From Paractinoplanes abujensis (GTDB taxonomy: Bacteria; Actinomycetota; Actinomycetes; Mycobacteriales; Micromonosporaceae), in the NCBI RefSeq assembly GCF_014204895.1, contig NZ_JACHMF010000001.1, positions 2,790,001 to 2,854,000 on the forward strand: DNA of 64,000 nucleotides, read 5' to 3'. The notes under the pieces are model-generated. The model made no database searches. It was not told the origin of the DNA and saw only the letters and a list, made by a program, of their open reading frames with translations. Of this stretch, positions 4,215 to 44,188 are shown one piece after another (position 1 is the stretch's first letter; each line of letters begins with the position of its first letter). The position numbers were made by a program, and so were the translations under genes.

Positions 4215-5123
4215 TCACTCCGGCTCAGGCCGCCTGAAAGGATCGGCGGGACAGCCCGACCGAGTAGCCTCGAGCTTCGTGATGACCGGGGCGGTCGGGT
4301 CGGTGGCCGCGCCCAGCGTGACGAACAGGGGCGTGAAGTGTTCCACCGTCGGGTGCGAGAACGGCATGCCCGGGGCGGCGCTGCGGAAGCGGGCCAGTTC
4401 GGCCACGTCGCCGCGGTCGAGGGCGTCGGCGGCCCACGCGTCGAAGTCGGCCGACCAGCCGGGCACCTTGTTCTCGGTGAACATCTCGCGGGTCAGGAAC
4501 GGCAGGCCGTGCGTCATGTGGCCGGAGCCGATGACCAGCACGCCCTGGTCGCGCAGGGGCCGCAGCCGGGTGCCCAGGGCGAGCAGCTCGTCGGGGTTCT
4601 CGGTGGGCAGGCTGAGCTGCAGCACGGGGACGTCGGCGAGCGGGTACATGATCTTCAGGGGGACCCAGGCGCCGTGGTCGAGGCCGCGGCTGTTGTGGTC
4701 GTGCACCTGCTCGCGGTCGGGCATCATCGCGATGACCTGCGCGGCCAGCGCTCCCGCGTCGGGGGTGTCGTAGCGGAAGTCGTAGTAGATCGGGTTGAAG
4801 CCGCCGAAGTCGTAGACCAGCTCGGCGGGGCGGGCGGCGCTGACCGACAGCGGGGCCGACTCCCAGTGCGCGCTGACCACGAGGATGGCCTTGGGCTTGG
4901 GCAGCGACCGGGCCCAGCGGCGCAGCGGGTTGAGCCACTCGGGGCTCTCGAACGGCATGGGGCCACCGCCGTGGCTGACGTAGAGGCTGGGCATCGCCCC
5001 GTCCTCGGGGGTCCACTCGCGGTGCGGGTCGGCCGCCTCGGCCGCGACCGCCCGTCGAACGTGCGCCGCGAACGGGTGCGCGGCCGGGATCCGGGCGTCG
5101 GCCGCCGAGGTCGTGCTGATCAT
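4215..5123 (-). CDS. DODA-type class III extradiol dioxygenase
   Basis: A 302-residue LigB-superfamily enzyme of the 4,5-DOPA dioxygenase (YgiD-like) group, which ring-opens catechols with a non-haem Fe(II). Visible signatures are YVSHGGGPMPFE (first metal His), ILVVSAHWES, NSRGLDHGAWVPL and VIGSGHMTHGL. The first 43 residues precede the usual family start; an internal ATG (MPSLYVSH) exists, but the upstream ATG at 5123 has AGGAG at a good distance and a promoter just above it, so it is preferred. The aminotransferase-like gene lies upstream in the same direction but has its own unit. The physiological catechol is unknown. Confidence 0.87.
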   Translation of the reverse strand: MISTTSAADARIPAAHPFAAHVRRAVAAEAADPHREWTPEDGAMPSLYVSHGGGPMPFESPEWLNPLRRWARSLPKPKAILVVSAHWESAPLSVSAARPAELVYDFGGFNPIYYDFRYDTPDAGALAAQVIAMMPDREQVHDHNSRGLDHGAWVPLKIMYPLADVPVLQLSLPTENPDELLALGTRLRPLRDQGVLVIGSGHMTHGLPFLTREMFTENKVPGWSADFDAWAADALDRGDVAELARFRSAAPGMPFSHPTVEHFTPLFVTLGAATDPTAPVITKLEATRSGCPADPFRRPEPE

Positions 5124-39125: not shown

Positions 39126-40265
39126 ATGGCGGACGTGACAGTGCTCGGTGCGGGGGCCGCGGGGCTCGCGGTGGCGGCTCAGCTCAAGGGGCGTGGCGTC
39201 AGCTGCGTCGTGCTCGAGCGCGGCCCCGGGGTGGCCACCAGCTGGCGCGGCCGCTACGACCGGCTGCGCCTGCACACCGTGCGCGGGCTGTCCGGGCTGC
39301 CCGGCATGCCGATCCCCCGGGCCTACGGCCGCTGGGTGCGCCGCGACGATTTGGTGCGCTACTTGGAGGCGTACGCGGAACGTTTCGGTCTCGACGTGCG
39401 CACCGGCACGGCAGTCGAACACATCAAACCCGGCGACGGCCGCTGGTCGCTGCAACTCGCCGACGGCAGCGAACACGTCACGGGCACATTGATCGTCGCC
39501 ACCGGCTATCTGCACACGCCGGAGGTGCCGCAATGGCCCGGCCTGTCGTCGTGGACGGGCCGGCTGATCCATTCCGCGGAATACCGCAATGCGCAACCCT
39601 TCCAGGGCCGCGACGTGCTCGTGGTCGGCCCCGGGAACAGCGGTGCCGAAATCGCCACGGACCTGGCCGAGGGCGGCGCCGCTTCGGTCAGCCTGGCCAT
39701 CCGCACGCCACCGCACATCGTCCGCCGCTCCACCGCGGGCTGGCCGGCGCAGCTGAACGGCCTGCTCCTGGGCGGCGTCCTCCCCGAGCCGGTCTTCAAC
39801 GCGATCGCCGCCACCATGGCCAGAGCCGAGGTGCCAAACCTTTCCCCGTACGGGCTCGAACGCCCCACCGAGGGCCTCAAGACGCGCCTGCGCACGCAGC
39901 GCTACGTGCCGCTGCAAGACGTGGGAATCGTCCGCGACATCGTGTCCGGCCGGGTGAAGCCGGTCGCCGCAGTGCAAGGCTTCACGGAATCCTCCGTGCT
40001 GCTGGCCGACGGTTCCACCACGGAGCCGGACGTCGTGGTGGCGGCCACGGGCTACGGCACCGGATTGCGCGAGATGTTCGACGACCCATCACTGTTCGAC
40101 GAGACCGGAGTGCCGCTCGTGCACGGAGGTGCAGCGGCCCGGCCGGGGCTGTACTTCATGGGCTACGACGTGACCCTGGGCGGCATGCTGCGCCAGCTGG
40201 CCATCGAGTCGCGGCGGGTGGCCCGGGCCGTTGTTCCCACGGCTCAGACCCGGCGTGGGTCGTAA
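39126..40265 (+). CDS. Flavin-containing NADPH monooxygenase-like oxidoreductase
   Basis: 379 residues of the FMO/YUCCA-like group. FAD motif VLGAGAAGLAVAAQLKGRGV at the N-terminus, substrate-loop WRGRYDRLRLHTVRGLSGLP, linker YLHTPEVPQWPGLSSWTGRL, NADPH motif VLVVGPGNSGAEIATDLAEG and a C-terminal ATG-motif VVVAATGYGTG followed by MGYDVTLGGMLRQLAIESRR. It would hydroxylate or oxidise a small substrate. CAGACT lies 6 nt before the ATG, possibly a leaderless start. Its 3' end overlaps the convergent STAND gene by 22 bp. Confidence 0.9.
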   Translation: MADVTVLGAGAAGLAVAAQLKGRGVSCVVLERGPGVATSWRGRYDRLRLHTVRGLSGLPGMPIPRAYGRWVRRDDLVRYLEAYAERFGLDVRTGTAVEHIKPGDGRWSLQLADGSEHVTGTLIVATGYLHTPEVPQWPGLSSWTGRLIHSAEYRNAQPFQGRDVLVVGPGNSGAEIATDLAEGGAASVSLAIRTPPHIVRRSTAGWPAQLNGLLLGGVLPEPVFNAIAATMARAEVPNLSPYGLERPTEGLKTRLRTQRYVPLQDVGIVRDIVSGRVKPVAAVQGFTESSVLLADGSTTEPDVVVAATGYGTGLREMFDDPSLFDETGVPLVHGGAAARPGLYFMGYDVTLGGMLRQLAIESRRVARAVVPTAQTRRGS

Positions 40266-43219
40266 CCGAGCCGCCGCAGAACTTCCCGGGTTCGTATCTC
40301 CGCCCTGTAGACAGGTTCGTAGGTCTTCGGCCGGGAGATGAAGTCGACAACGACCGCGGCGACCTCCGGCGTGGCCCAGCGCAGAATCCGCACGAGGTTA
40401 CCCACCTCTGCGTCCCGGATCAGGCGTGCCATGTAGCCCACCACCACAGTGTTGTCCAGCAGCTTGTTGTCCTCGACGAGACATCTGACGATCGCGAGCC
40501 GCTGGTCCGGATAGAACCCGCTGAACATCAGCTCGAACCAGTCGAGCTGAGGCCTCATCGCGACGATGACAGCGGCGGCCTCGTCCGGAGACAACTTCTC
40601 CAGCCGGAAACGAGCGGTGTAGGGCGGCTTGCTGATGAGCGAACGGGCCGTCTGCGCAACATCGATCGAAGCCTGCGGCGAGGGAGGCCGGGGTGGCGCC
40701 GGGTCCGGCCGGCGTCGTTGACCACGCATCGCGTTGGCCTCCGTCTGACTACCGGCCACGTCGAGGATCTCGGCGCCGAGTGTGCGCGCGGTCAGGATCA
40801 GCCGGTCACGAACGCTGTCGAAACGAGACGCGCGGGCTCTCTCGATCACTTCGTCCAGCGCCGCCAGCGCGTCCTGGGTGTGCATCCCGGACCGGAGCGA
40901 GAACCGAGCGAACTTGATCAGTGCCTGCACGAGGTCGCGCTCGTGGCGTTCGGCGCTGATCCTGATCAGGCGCCGGTGAATCGCGATGGTCTCGGCCTGC
41001 GCCGCGAACGCCTCTCGCCACCGCATCTGATCGGCCAGGATCTGGGCCTCCGTCTGGAGTGCCTGAGCCAGTTCCTTGTCGTAACAGACGTTCACCGCGG
41101 CCAGTCGCCGGTACACCGCCACCGCGCTCGCCACCGCGAAGGCGGCCTCCTGGTCGTGACGCAGCGAATGCTCGGTCATGGCCCGCCCGAGCAGCGTCGC
41201 GGCGAAGTCCCGTTCGAGGCCCGCACCCGCGTTCCCGGCCACCGCCTGCAGGAGGTCCAAGGCCTCGGTCAAGGCCTCGAGCGCGTCCGGACGGCGGTCG
41301 CCGCGGCGCAGTTGCTCGGCCTGCTGCACCAGCACCCGGATCAGTGTCAGCCGATGCCGCCCGTCCACCGCGACCAGCCGTCGCAGCTGGGCGATGGCCC
41401 GGTGCCGGATCGACAGCGACGACGTGCCCCGGCCCTGGTTCCACAGCGCGAGGCTCAGGTCGGCCAGGCAGCCGGCGATGTCCTCGGCCGCCGGCGTGCA
41501 ACCGTCGTCCCACAGCTCGACCGCCTCACCGAGAGCGTCCGCGGCCCCGGCCCAGTCCTTGACGCGGGTACAGGCCCGGCCGAGGCTGCGCAGCGCCAGT
41601 TCCCGTTGCGCAACCCGGGCGGGTGGTCGCCGAGCCAGGCCGACCGCCTCGTGCAGCAGGTTGATGCCGTCGCGGACCCGGCCCGATTCGCAGAGCCGCC
41701 AGCCCAGCTTGACGGCGAGCGCCCCCGCCCGTACGGGATCGTCGGTGTGGCCGGCCAGCTCGCGGGCCAGGCGCTCGGTGATCGCGGCGATGCCCGCGTG
41801 CAGGTCGGCCGGTGGTTCGGGCGGGAACGCGGACTCGATCGCGGCCAGCACGTCCAGCGGCATGGCCGGGGCGCCGGCGATCGCCGACAGCGCGGCCGAC
41901 CCGGCCCGTACGGCCAGCTCGGGTCGTTCCCGCAGCACCGGCACCAGCTGGCTGGTCGCCAAGTGGGGCCAGCGCCGGGCCGCCTCGACCAGCATCGGCA
42001 GGGCCGTGGCGGCACTGCGCGCGTCGTGGGCGAGCAGTTCGCCGAGTGCGCCCTTGGCCCAGGGGTCCGGCCGGAACCCGCCGATGTCGTGACCGGGGGT
42101 CTGCAGGGCCACGAAATCCTCGGCCAGCCGGTCGGGGTAGAGCGGTTCCAGCACGGTGTCGGGGTCGAGCGGCGGGTAGCACATCGCATGGTCCTCGAGC
42201 AGCCGGCCGGCGTCGCCGACCCCGTCGACGACCGCCAACGCCCGCAGCACGGGCAGGGCGGACGCGTAGTCGAGGGACCGGATCAGCGCAGCCACGTACA
42301 CCGCGCGGCCCATCACCGGCGGGGGCGACTCGACGCGGCGGTCGTTGTCGTACATCGACTGCCAGTGATGGCGTTCGCGCGACAACAGGTAGGCCGACAA
42401 CTGGGCGGGGTCGGTCGGTGGCTCCTCGCCGTGCCGGACGGCCAGCACATGGGCCAGCGCCGCCATGTGCACGGTCAGGAACGAACCCTCGACCGCCGGC
42501 ACCGGATGACCGGGCACCGCCACGTCGAGGGCGCGCGCGAAACACCTTCGCGCAACCTCGAACACTTCCGCCGCACCGACCTGGGCCGGGGCCAGTTCGA
42601 GGCTGTCGGCGTGCACGCCCAGCGTGTCCGAGAGCCGGTAGGTCAGCAAGTCCCACCAGTTGCCCAGCGGCCGGGCCAGCAGCAGCACGCGCAACGCGCG
42701 GCCGGTGTGCAGCCGGCGGTCGAGCAGCAACGCCAGCAGGTCGGAGAGCGGCCAGCGTTCGGCGTAGTCGACCAGGACGAGCAGTGGTTTCTGCGCCACG
42801 AGGGCGGTGCCGGCGGCCACCTCGACCGGTTGCACCACGGCGTCGCGGCTGTGCCGGGCCCGCACGGTGATCCACCCGGCGCCGTGGGCCAGCTCGGCGA
42901 ACCGGTGCGCCAGCCGGGTCTTGCCCTGCCCGGCGCCGCCGTGCAGCAGCCGGACCGCCATCGCCGCCCCGCCTTCGAGCCACGCCGCCAGGTCGGCCAG
43001 CTCGCGGGTGCGGCCGGTGAAGTCGACGACCCGGTTGCCCGCGTTGAGCAGCCGGCTGGGCATTTCACCGTCCGGCACGGCCACGGCCCCGAACGACAGC
43101 TCGTCGATGAAGTGCGTGCCGATCCGCTGGTGGATGTGCAGGTCGCCGTTCTGCACGGCCAGCAGCGTGGCGGCCTCGCCCGCGGTGTTGATCTGCTGAG
43201 GCGCGACCTCACGCCTCAT
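40244..43219 (-). CDS. STAND NTPase with N-terminal amyloid-like signalling motif
   Basis: 991 residues. Residues 9-31 (QINTAGEAATLLAVQNGD, then LHIHQ) match the C-terminus of the upstream small protein at 12 of 23 ungapped positions. After a linker the NTPase follows: Walker A LLHGGAGQGKTRLAHRF (91-107) and Walker B PLLVLVDYAERW (145-156), with RVLLLARPLGNWWD as sensor region. The C-terminal about 450 residues are TPR-like helical repeats (LGWRLCESGRVRDGINLLHE, ALGEAVELWDDG), ending in a distinct about 120-residue domain (LSPDEAAAVIVAMRPQLDWF). Known families with this layout are bacterial NLR-like sensors. The ATG at 43219 overlaps the small gene by 11 bp, so expression is coupled. The trigger is unknown. 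Confidence 0.85.
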   Translation of the reverse strand: MRREVAPQQINTAGEAATLLAVQNGDLHIHQRIGTHFIDELSFGAVAVPDGEMPSRLLNAGNRVVDFTGRTRELADLAAWLEGGAAMAVRLLHGGAGQGKTRLAHRFAELAHGAGWITVRARHSRDAVVQPVEVAAGTALVAQKPLLVLVDYAERWPLSDLLALLLDRRLHTGRALRVLLLARPLGNWWDLLTYRLSDTLGVHADSLELAPAQVGAAEVFEVARRCFARALDVAVPGHPVPAVEGSFLTVHMAALAHVLAVRHGEEPPTDPAQLSAYLLSRERHHWQSMYDNDRRVESPPPVMGRAVYVAALIRSLDYASALPVLRALAVVDGVGDAGRLLEDHAMCYPPLDPDTVLEPLYPDRLAEDFVALQTPGHDIGGFRPDPWAKGALGELLAHDARSAATALPMLVEAARRWPHLATSQLVPVLRERPELAVRAGSAALSAIAGAPAMPLDVLAAIESAFPPEPPADLHAGIAAITERLARELAGHTDDPVRAGALAVKLGWRLCESGRVRDGINLLHEAVGLARRPPARVAQRELALRSLGRACTRVKDWAGAADALGEAVELWDDGCTPAAEDIAGCLADLSLALWNQGRGTSSLSIRHRAIAQLRRLVAVDGRHRLTLIRVLVQQAEQLRRGDRRPDALEALTEALDLLQAVAGNAGAGLERDFAATLLGRAMTEHSLRHDQEAAFAVASAVAVYRRLAAVNVCYDKELAQALQTEAQILADQMRWREAFAAQAETIAIHRRLIRISAERHERDLVQALIKFARFSLRSGMHTQDALAALDEVIERARASRFDSVRDRLILTARTLGAEILDVAGSQTEANAMRGQRRRPDPAPPRPPSPQASIDVAQTARSLISKPPYTARFRLEKLSPDEAAAVIVAMRPQLDWFELMFSGFYPDQRLAIVRCLVEDNKLLDNTVVVGYMARLIRDAEVGNLVRILRWATPEVAAVVVDFISRPKTYEPVYRAEIRTREVLRRLGYDPRRV

Positions 43220-43496
43220 CCGGCCCGCCGATCCTCAGGTCGCCGCCCCGGACGTTGTCCGCCGTGGCCTGGCCGGACGCGGTGTTGATCTGCACCGGCC
43301 CGGAACCGCCGCCGCCCGCGCGCAGCGAGGTCCACACGCCGATCAGGCCGAGGACTACCGCCACGACGACGCCGGCCATGCTGGACAGTTTGTCGGCCCG
43401 GTCGAGCTCGTTGCGCGCCAGGACCACGATCCACCCGGCCGGCAGCACCCCACAGCCGACGATCGTCATCGATGCCCACAGCCACCGCCGCGTCAT
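43209..43496 (-). CDS. Two-TM protein with C-terminal amyloid-like motif, partner of the STAND NTPase
   Basis: 95 residues: TM1 about 6-27 (LWASMTIVGCGVLPAGWIVV), a charged loop (ARNELDRADK), TM2 about 39-58 (SMAGVVVAVVLGLIGVWTSL), a Gly-rich linker (GGGGSG) and a C-terminal motif at 69-91 (QINTASGQATADNVRGGD, then LRIGG). The motif is shared with the N-terminus of the STAND protein encoded next. A membrane module joined by a flexible linker to such a motif is what a membrane-acting effector of an amyloid-signalling pair would look like. ATG 43496 lies 6 nt after CATACT, a near-consensus -10, so the operon is probably leaderless. Confidence 0.75.
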   Translation of the reverse strand: MTRRWLWASMTIVGCGVLPAGWIVVLARNELDRADKLSSMAGVVVAVVLGLIGVWTSLRAGGGGSGPVQINTASGQATADNVRGGDLRIGGPDEA

Positions 43497-43508: not shown

Positions 43509-43740
43509 GCCGACACCCCGCACCAGACGTCCCACGATCTTCACCCGGAACTGATCCACCGACCAGCGGCGCGCGGTGCCGGCCGGTGTCAGCCGAGTTC
43601 CTCTACCACTGGCCGGCGTCGGGCCGGACCAGCATCTGCCGGCGTTGTTCTCGGCCTGCAGCAGAGTGGCGTCGGCGAACGACTCCCGGCCGGCCTCGAG
43701 AACGTCCGCGCGGATGTGGGTGAACAGTCCGGTGGCGACC

Positions 43741-43980
43741 GGGCCGGGCTTGTTCCGTGACGGCCGGCTGACCTACGAGCCCCGCGGGGAAGGCCCTGCC
43801 GCTGCCGCCTCCCTGGCCCTGCTGGAGGCACTGCCGGCCGCTCACACCGGCGCCTTGGGCCGAGCGAAGTCGTGCATGAACCCGGCGTGCGGCTCGGCGT
43901 TCCACGACCTGTCCCGCAACAGCACCCGGAGCCGGCAGGACATGAAGACCTGCGGTAACGCCATCATTCTCCGGGCTTCC
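43741..43980 (+). pseudogene. CGNR zinc-finger protein remnant
   Basis: The frame reads LFRDGRLTYEPRGEG, then GRAKSCMNPACGSAFHDLSR and SRQDMKTCGNAIIL. CGNR zinc fingers end in KxCxNPxCxxxFxDxSRNxxRxWCsMxxCGNRxK; here the third zinc Cys and its neighbours are replaced (SRQDM for RWCSM) and the CGNR arginine is lost. The N-terminal two thirds of the usual about 190-residue protein cannot be followed upstream in one frame. It is probably a decayed regulator. About 100 bp further on, another short frame ends in DYKLTPMDEGFAGAVRELCR before a TGA at 44108, likewise a fragment without a start; nothing else is seen up to 44188. Confidence 0.6.
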
Positions 43981-44188
43981 AGGCCCGCCGGCGAAAGCCC
44001 GGCAGTCAGTCACGTGCCTGACTCTCGACACCACATGGGGCGACTACAAGCTCACCCCAATGGATGAGGGCTTCGCCGGCGCCGTCCGGGAGCTCTGCCG
44101 TCGGTCCTGAGCAGGAGTTTCCCGATCTCGGAACGGGAACGGTGATCTGGGCCGGCTGAGGGACGCACCGCAGGGGTGACATGCAAAA

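Follow-up and report, generated by a model that had tools for sequence, protein, structure and literature searches.

Two overlapping genes share an ungapped motif of 23 residues

The window, by which we mean the whole stretch of 64,000 nucleotides of Paractinoplanes abujensis DNA that was analysed, carries two neighbouring genes on its reverse strand. P0001 (43209..43496), as judged from its sequence, its relatives and a structural model, encodes a 95-residue protein with two predicted transmembrane (2TM) helices and a C-terminal motif, a putative effector; P0002 (40244..43219), as judged from sequence, model and Foldseek, encodes a 991-residue STAND NTPase with a TPR C-terminus, a putative sensor and switch. 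By their coordinates the two reading frames overlap by 11 bp (43209..43219), so that translational coupling is likely. An earlier note on this DNA had claimed, besides this overlap, that the end of the first protein resembles the beginning of the second, and both observations hold: residues 69-91 of P0001 (QINTASGQATADNVRGGDLRIGG; 43224..43292, reverse strand) align without a gap with residues 9-31 of P0002 (QINTAGEAATLLAVQNGDLHIHQ; 43127..43195, reverse strand), and 12 of the 23 positions are identical. When the last 40 residues of P0001 and the first 40 of P0002 were shuffled, at least 12 identities were reached in 0 of 2,000 shuffles (mean 5.1, maximum 10). The local score of the P0001 tail with the P0002 N-terminus was 53, as against a maximum of 42 in 2,000 shuffles; among the gene-like open reading frames (ORFs) of the window, this tail scored no more than 27 against 46 other N-termini, and the P0002 N-terminus no more than 25 against 47 other C-termini. 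At the DNA level, 44 of 69 positions of the two copies are identical (14, 12 and 18 of 23 by codon position), which does not indicate a recent DNA duplication.

The gene pair and its 3' flank could be aligned with P. lichenicola, whereas the other flank, beyond 43514, could not. PADLOC, which was run on the pair only, assigned no family to P0001 or P0002 up to E 1, and none of seven flanking ORFs typed with Pfam is a defence gene by name. A CGNR zinc-finger protein (43576-44067, E 5.8e-7) is encoded divergently to the pair; the other typed neighbors are a FAD monooxygenase-like protein, an SDR, a TetR regulator, a PEP-utilising enzyme and a mycothiol isomerase-like protein. Carriage by phages was discarded, with no relative found among 16 pattern matches in viral contigs, and so was carriage by plasmids, every one of 19 plasmid records (18 from Streptomyces and one from Nonomuraea) being below 60% identity.

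A small protein with two hydrophobic helices and a conserved loop

The AF2 model of P0001 (mean pLDDT 56.5) contains two helices, of which the first (residues 3-30; 43407..43490, reverse strand) is modelled with low confidence and is also apparent from the hydrophobicity of the sequence, while the second (residues 36-60; 43317..43391, reverse strand) follows the conserved loop ELDRADKLSS. A Gly-rich linker, defined by alignment and variable in homologues (residues 61-68; 43293..43316, reverse strand), leads to the motif, which was delimited by sequence and by a class profile; the tail is modelled with a pLDDT below 50 and contains no beta structure.

Eight proteins were found with P0001: P0003, which is the window's own protein with a later start, and seven relatives (P0004-P0010). 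The three relatives that are named all belong to Actinoplanes/Paractinoplanes. Across the alignment of P0001 with its relatives, conservation is confined to the interhelix loop, in which L31, D32, R33, A34, D35, L37, S38 and S39 are invariant, and to the motif, while the linker and the residues beyond the motif vary. No Pfam, NCBIfam or PADLOC family matched P0001 above cut-off, and the best PHROGs match had an E-value of only 0.028. With Pfam matches accepted up to E 1, only DUF4234 (E 0.11) was returned, and no SLATT, CHAT or TIR family; we take the Pfam set used to include the SLATT models.

The motif copy of P0001 is detected in its own genome at E 3.7e-12 by a class profile that was built including this copy. 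It is unusually diverged, with TAD and VR where all seven relatives have TMY and VQ; a nearly invariant Q and the two residues MY are thereby lost. Relative to its nearest relative, P. lichenicola, it has undergone eight nonsynonymous changes and one synonymous change. Given this ratio and the lost residues, the window's effector motif may be weakening or decaying, or may be changing its partner.

A STAND-TPR NTPase with the second motif copy at its N-terminus

P0002 contains a Walker A sequence, GGAGQGKT (residues 94-101; 42917..42940, reverse strand), with G97, G99, K100 and T101 invariant, and a Walker B-like strand, LLVLVDY (residues 146-152; 42764..42784, reverse strand), of which residues 146-150 are modelled as a strand and V150, D151 and Y152 are invariant; invariance was judged on 24 aligned sequences chosen by hand. 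In the same 24 sequences, Q9 and G25 of the N-terminal motif are invariant and V22 and Q23 nearly so. TPR-like helical repeats, with approximate borders at residues 495-821 (40757..41737, reverse strand), are supported by sequence matches to TPR structures, by the model and by Foldseek, and are likely to form a sensor platform. The AF2 model has a mean pLDDT of 84.6, and its top Foldseek match is the STAND-TPR protein 6mfv, a likeness that concerns the fold of NTPase and TPR. In the model the motif, which was delimited by sequence and alignment, forms three short strands (residues 9-13, 18-23 and 26-31), nearly all at pLDDT below 50, so that we take them as a mere hint of a beta-arch.

Relatives of P0002 are numerous, with 672 proteins at E ≤ 1e-3 among 7,991 candidates scored. 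The STAND-side motif is strongly conserved: when four sequences were compared in six pairs over 24 codons, dN/dS values lay at 0.03-0.30. On a tree of 109 ATPase cores, the motif class changes seven times, compared with 26.7 times in shuffles, none of 200 shuffles being as low; class labels on this tree were assigned by crude regular expressions, which left 39 of the 109 rows, including P0002, unlabelled. The motifs thus mostly travel with ATPase clades, and rampant plug swapping on one ATPase was set aside as a reading.

Tails of related 2TM proteins match the NTPase next to them

Genomes were searched with two profiles. The full-length P0001 profile matched in 29 of 67 genomes of the genus, where it found three close pairs and, further, distant 2TM proteins. 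A core profile (A2), from which the motif was excluded, matched in 124 of the 250 genomes searched from the window's family (E ≤ 1e-3) and, at the stricter E ≤ 1e-5, in 14 of 296 genomes drawn from the class; the 2TM core is therefore common in the family and scattered elsewhere. From among the A2 matches listed, a subset of all matches, we took 109 stretches outside the window's own genome, with a preference for short open frames (about 450 residues at most), since long frames looked like fusions. Together with a second pair in the own genome (L165) and the window, these make 111 loci; three other own-genome stretches (L166, L167 and L177) were excluded. Sixteen loci encode long-tailed proteins and 95 a free-standing 2TM protein.

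An automated caller, blind to the motif, placed a downstream NTPase at 55 of the 95 free-standing loci and at the remaining 40 called none. At the 55 loci, the tail of the 2TM protein scored a mean of 56.8 against the N-terminus of its own partner and 32.1 against swapped partners (z 16.6, 0 of 20,000 permutations). This difference was not seen when the same tails were compared with the NTPase interior (22.0 versus 22.7, z -1.3), or when the TM cores were compared with the NTPase N-termini (20.9 versus 22.0, z -2.2). Since related loci share kinship and are not independent, z is descriptive, and the controls carry the argument. For individual loci, all 500 shuffles of the own tail were beaten in 33 of 55, and in 47 of 55 the cognate score was reached by no more than five of them; at 24 of the 55 no partner from another motif cluster scored as high as the cognate one. 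The clusters number 26 at an arbitrary cut-off, and 16 of them include at least one locus that beat all 500 shuffles. As the caller relies on codon-position GC contrast, some partners are wrong and count against pairing (L120 and L139 are apparent failures), and one locus, L187, has no 2TM gene at the expected place. This survey replaces an earlier test of 35 loci (z 12.9; cognate partner ranked first at 12 loci and fifth or better at 32), with variant P-loops now accepted and the controls added.

At four loci (L022, L030, L032 and L034), which were selected because they looked like fusions, a 2TM protein and an NTPase with a confirmed Walker A are encoded in one reading frame, so that the two parts also occur as a single chain; among 13 long-tailed loci of the earlier test set, not picked for fusion, none has a P-loop in its tail. 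In Actinoplanes subtropicus (L187; NZ_JOJL01000001.1, ~4970-5005) the STAND gene and its motif are kept while the 2TM gene is gone, and sequences resembling those before the 2TM start and after the 2TM motif now adjoin, although an assembly fault is possible.

About ten motif kinds, one of them resembling a published amyloid motif

By eye, some ten kinds of motif are paired across the 2TM loci, and the kind differs between loci. The window's class reads QIN.A..AT..VQ.GDL. Other kinds are QSVTGSxVGGxVxQVxGVxGxV; TGDATAxxGGxANTG, often present in two copies in the effector; GSVAVGGDNxAPIxT; NxIxGGxFxGPVxQGRDI; and RDAYVAGGDQYF, IHQANTGGVNVA and GGDNINIGRARDV. A further, RHIM-like kind (GVQIGDGNTQHN) is similar to the BASS3 peptide in Table 2 of PMC8086366, for which the accessible part of that paper reports amyloid-like aggregation. 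This BASS3-type motif stands at both ends of L169, on a 2TM protein matched by the core profile and on the adjacent NTPase; at both ends of L182 and L183, where the neighbours of the NTPases are other proteins in which two hydrophobic helices are apparent by eye; and, again by eye, in similar form on the 2TM loci L081, L096, L098 and L106. At the last three of these loci, the downstream ORF that was picked looks by eye like a phytoene desaturase-type FAD enzyme and not like an NTPase. Helical proteins bearing the BASS3 motif at L178, L181, L184 and L185 were taken for BELL proteins. Used as a query, the published BASS3 peptide matched in 6 of 298 genomes of the order.

The window's own motif was also considered as a BASS3/RHIM-like motif (core G-V-Q-(I/V)-G-D-x-N-x-Q), a reading rejected at a profile probability of 2.9% against 12 BASS3-type sequences. 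Its STAND copy resembles an archaeal NLR-side peptide (REVAPQQINTAGEA / QKVIGQQINVAGDA; 0 of 2,000 shuffles) that is described as aggregating in the accessible part of PMC8086366. When sequences of the window's class were compared with four published peptides, 4 of 28 comparisons gave p < 0.05; the window's STAND copy matched one of the four peptides and its effector tail none.

Six pairs of the window's class, its own among them, have 9-14 identical positions out of 23, and within this class cognate pairs are no better matched than swapped ones, so that the specificity seen is that of classes and not of alleles. The earlier note had expected the motif to persist in homologues of both genes, to recur in adjacent genes beside STAND NTPases and to co-vary between its two copies. 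The first two expectations were borne out, by retention at both ends in relatives and by the preference of tails for their own partner at the 55 loci; co-variation is found between motif classes and not within the window's class.

BELL-like proteins occupy the effector position next to related ATPases

We also approached the pairing from the side of the ATPase, with 80 named loci that were the best 80 of 200 P0002 relatives, 78 of them usable. An upstream ORF, chosen by gene-likeness without consulting the motif, was obtained at 71 of the 80. Here, too, cognate proteins matched better than swapped ones (mean 47.1 versus 30.6, z 14.6, 0 of 20,000), with 31 of the 71 loci beating all 500 shuffles and 40 not. 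The upstream protein is two-TM by hydropathy at 12 of the 71 loci; seven of these 12, from Paractinoplanes, Asanoa, Nonomuraea (two), Streptomyces harenosi, Kitasatospora and Microbispora, are among the 31 that beat all shuffles, and not all seven carry the LDxADK loop. Many of the other upstream proteins, chiefly from Streptomyces, are soluble helical proteins with a BELL-like look.

In profile comparisons, the 2TM core gave 0.5% with four BASS3-linked BELL-type proteins and 0.07% with seven BELL-like proteins, the BELL labels resting on descriptions and on the linked motifs rather than on a match to a BELL profile; these two sets resemble each other weakly (12.4%). We therefore dropped the reading of the 2TM protein as a BELL protein. 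The motifs, on the other hand, are related: the window's class and the class shared by Streptomyces BELL-like proteins and their STAND partners (A7) align over 21 columns (hhalign 95.9%, E 5e-9), both profiles being made from hand-selected sequences. It follows that one ATPase family takes effectors of two sorts, BELL-like and 2TM, through related motifs, that the window's kind of motif is, on sequence grounds, probably not new, and that the unusual part is the 2TM effector. Given its Streptomyces relation, the window's class may already be catalogued as a BASS.

Further copies in the same genome

The second 2TM-STAND pair of the own genome (L165, ~3.84 Mb) has a doubled QSV-type motif in the 2TM protein and a single one in the STAND protein. 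The two own-genome pairs score 53 and 59 in cognate combination and 29 and 28 when crossed; to judge by sequence, the two channels look insulated. At 2034986-2035048 (2.035 Mb; E 1.3e-5) the own genome has a third copy of the window's motif class. It precedes a locus that is split over two frames, the first piece of which matched no Pfam family and the second of which matched CHAT (Pfam, E 1.8e-10). For motifs of this sort, CHAT has been reported before as an output (PMC7889193), and this locus is possibly an unlinked second output of the window's motif.

A proposed NLR-like module with a membrane-acting effector

We consider it reasonably probable that P0001 and P0002 form an NLR-like module in which an amyloid-type motif couples the NTPase to a membrane-acting 2TM effector. 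By the logic of the family, the TPR half of P0002 would sense a cue, upon which the STAND NTPase would oligomerise, driven by NTP. This would gather the N-terminal motifs of about 23 residues into a beta-arch or cross-beta seed, which would recruit and template the matching C-terminal motif of P0001 and so cluster the two-TM protein in the membrane. Clustered P0001 would then open or perturb the bilayer, leading to cell death or arrest. The templating step, which we infer from the form of the motif and from relatives that bear BASS3, is supported by those relatives and by the pairing statistics; the damage to the membrane would follow from the same family logic, and the module may serve in defence. 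Tags in dozens of related pairs suggest matched plugs by which a sensor switches a membrane protein, possibly through prion-like templating that kills or silences the cell. Of the amyloid pair proposed in the earlier note, the shared motif, the pairing and the small membrane protein as an unusual effector, with two TM helices and no detectable relation to BELL, are upheld, whereas co-variation is so at the level of classes only.

In several respects the pair resembles the BASS/BELL-NLR signalosomes (Dyrka et al. 2020), known to us through the accessible parts of PMC7889193, PMC8086366 and PMC9815663. A motif of about 25 residues at the effector C-terminus and the NLR N-terminus corresponds to the motif shared here, adjacent or overlapping genes to the 11-bp overlap, and a STAND NTPase with repeats to P0002; both occur in multicellular actinobacteria, and some related 2TM proteins carry the BASS3-type motif. 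The difference lies in the effector: the two-TM protein has an L(D/E)xADKxxS loop that is conserved and shows no profile relation to the BELL sets, whereas BELL has been described as a helical bundle that includes a single hydrophobic transmembrane helix; BELL, CHAT and TIR are the effectors named in the accessible part of the amyloid-NLR account, which does not name this 2TM protein (PMC7889193). The fungal NLR/HeLo-HELL systems (HET-S/NWD2, HELLP/PNT1) likewise combine an N-terminal NLR motif, a C-terminal effector motif and a membrane-targeting effector (PMC7889193, in part), but there a helical effector domain sets free an N-terminal membrane helix (PMC10197012, in part); the likeness drawn here is one of logic. 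SLATT proteins are, like P0001, small and two-TM, and are predicted to form pores in NTP-dependent conflict systems; however, P0001 matched no SLATT model above cut-off, and SLATT proteins are predicted to answer nucleotide signals rather than a peptide motif (PMC7159879, in part). In the open-access literature, which does not extend to Dyrka et al. (2020), we came across no description of a 2TM effector carrying motifs of this kind; it is absent from the accessible parts of PMC7889193, PMC8086366, PMC12261475, PMC9815663, PMC8195603, PMC7159879, PMC10907252, PMC12881547 and PMC10197012.

The matching statistics would fit any homotypic tag, and neither tail has a confidently predicted fold. 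The motif might accordingly be a docking tag rather than an amyloid, a short ordered beta hairpin or heteromer that recruits P0001 to a STAND ring without templated polymerisation. We regard this as unlikely, since some members of the 2TM set use the BASS3-type motif, whose peptide is reported to aggregate (PMC8086366, in part), since amyloid signalling motifs are described, in the parts of the literature accessible to us, as about 25 residues long and single or repeated, and since several of the tails studied here carry two motif copies by eye.

Somewhat more doubtful is a role of P0001 as a membrane anchor or safety catch, whose tag would constantly tether the STAND protein to the membrane while the output lies elsewhere. 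Such a role would suit a protein that has two short helices, a conserved charged loop and no match above cut-off to a known toxin family, the direct 2TM-NTPase fusions are equally compatible with it, and the STAND gene retained in Actinoplanes subtropicus without its 2TM gene, barring an assembly fault, speaks in its favor. However, in Streptomyces the partners of ATPases of the same family are soluble, helical, BELL-like proteins, joined to them by a related class of motif, so that the slot occupied by P0001 is an effector slot, and its placement on the effector side is that of the BELL/CHAT/TIR pattern (PMC7889193, in part).

Although the two copies are adjacent at a gene junction and share 44 of 69 nucleotides, chance or a functionless by-product of an old, simple junction duplication is scarcely credible, given the shuffles, the motif kept at both ends in orthologues, the low STAND-side dN/dS and the class-wide pairing of some ten motif kinds in like manner.

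Preferring, then, the NLR-like module with amyloid-type coupling, we tentatively extend it to the family, a broader proposal that we hold as a serious possibility, short of probable: in multicellular actinobacteria, the LDxADK two-TM protein would be a second general executioner of amyloid NLR signalling, one that has no name as yet. Parallel modules in one genome, two in the present case, would be kept apart by orthogonal prion-like motif wires, and one wire could serve several outputs, as a related motif on Streptomyces BELL-like effectors and the window's class at the CHAT locus of the same genome would exemplify. Bacterial amyloid NLR signalling has so far been described around BELL effectors. 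If the proposal is true, a two-helix core of about 60 residues, which some ten kinds of tag plug into the same sort of circuit, would make an executioner of very small size; the natural matched and mismatched motif pairs would make it possible to measure how sequence sets the specificity of cross-seeding; and so simple a 2TM effector would make the action of the signalosome on the cell testable.
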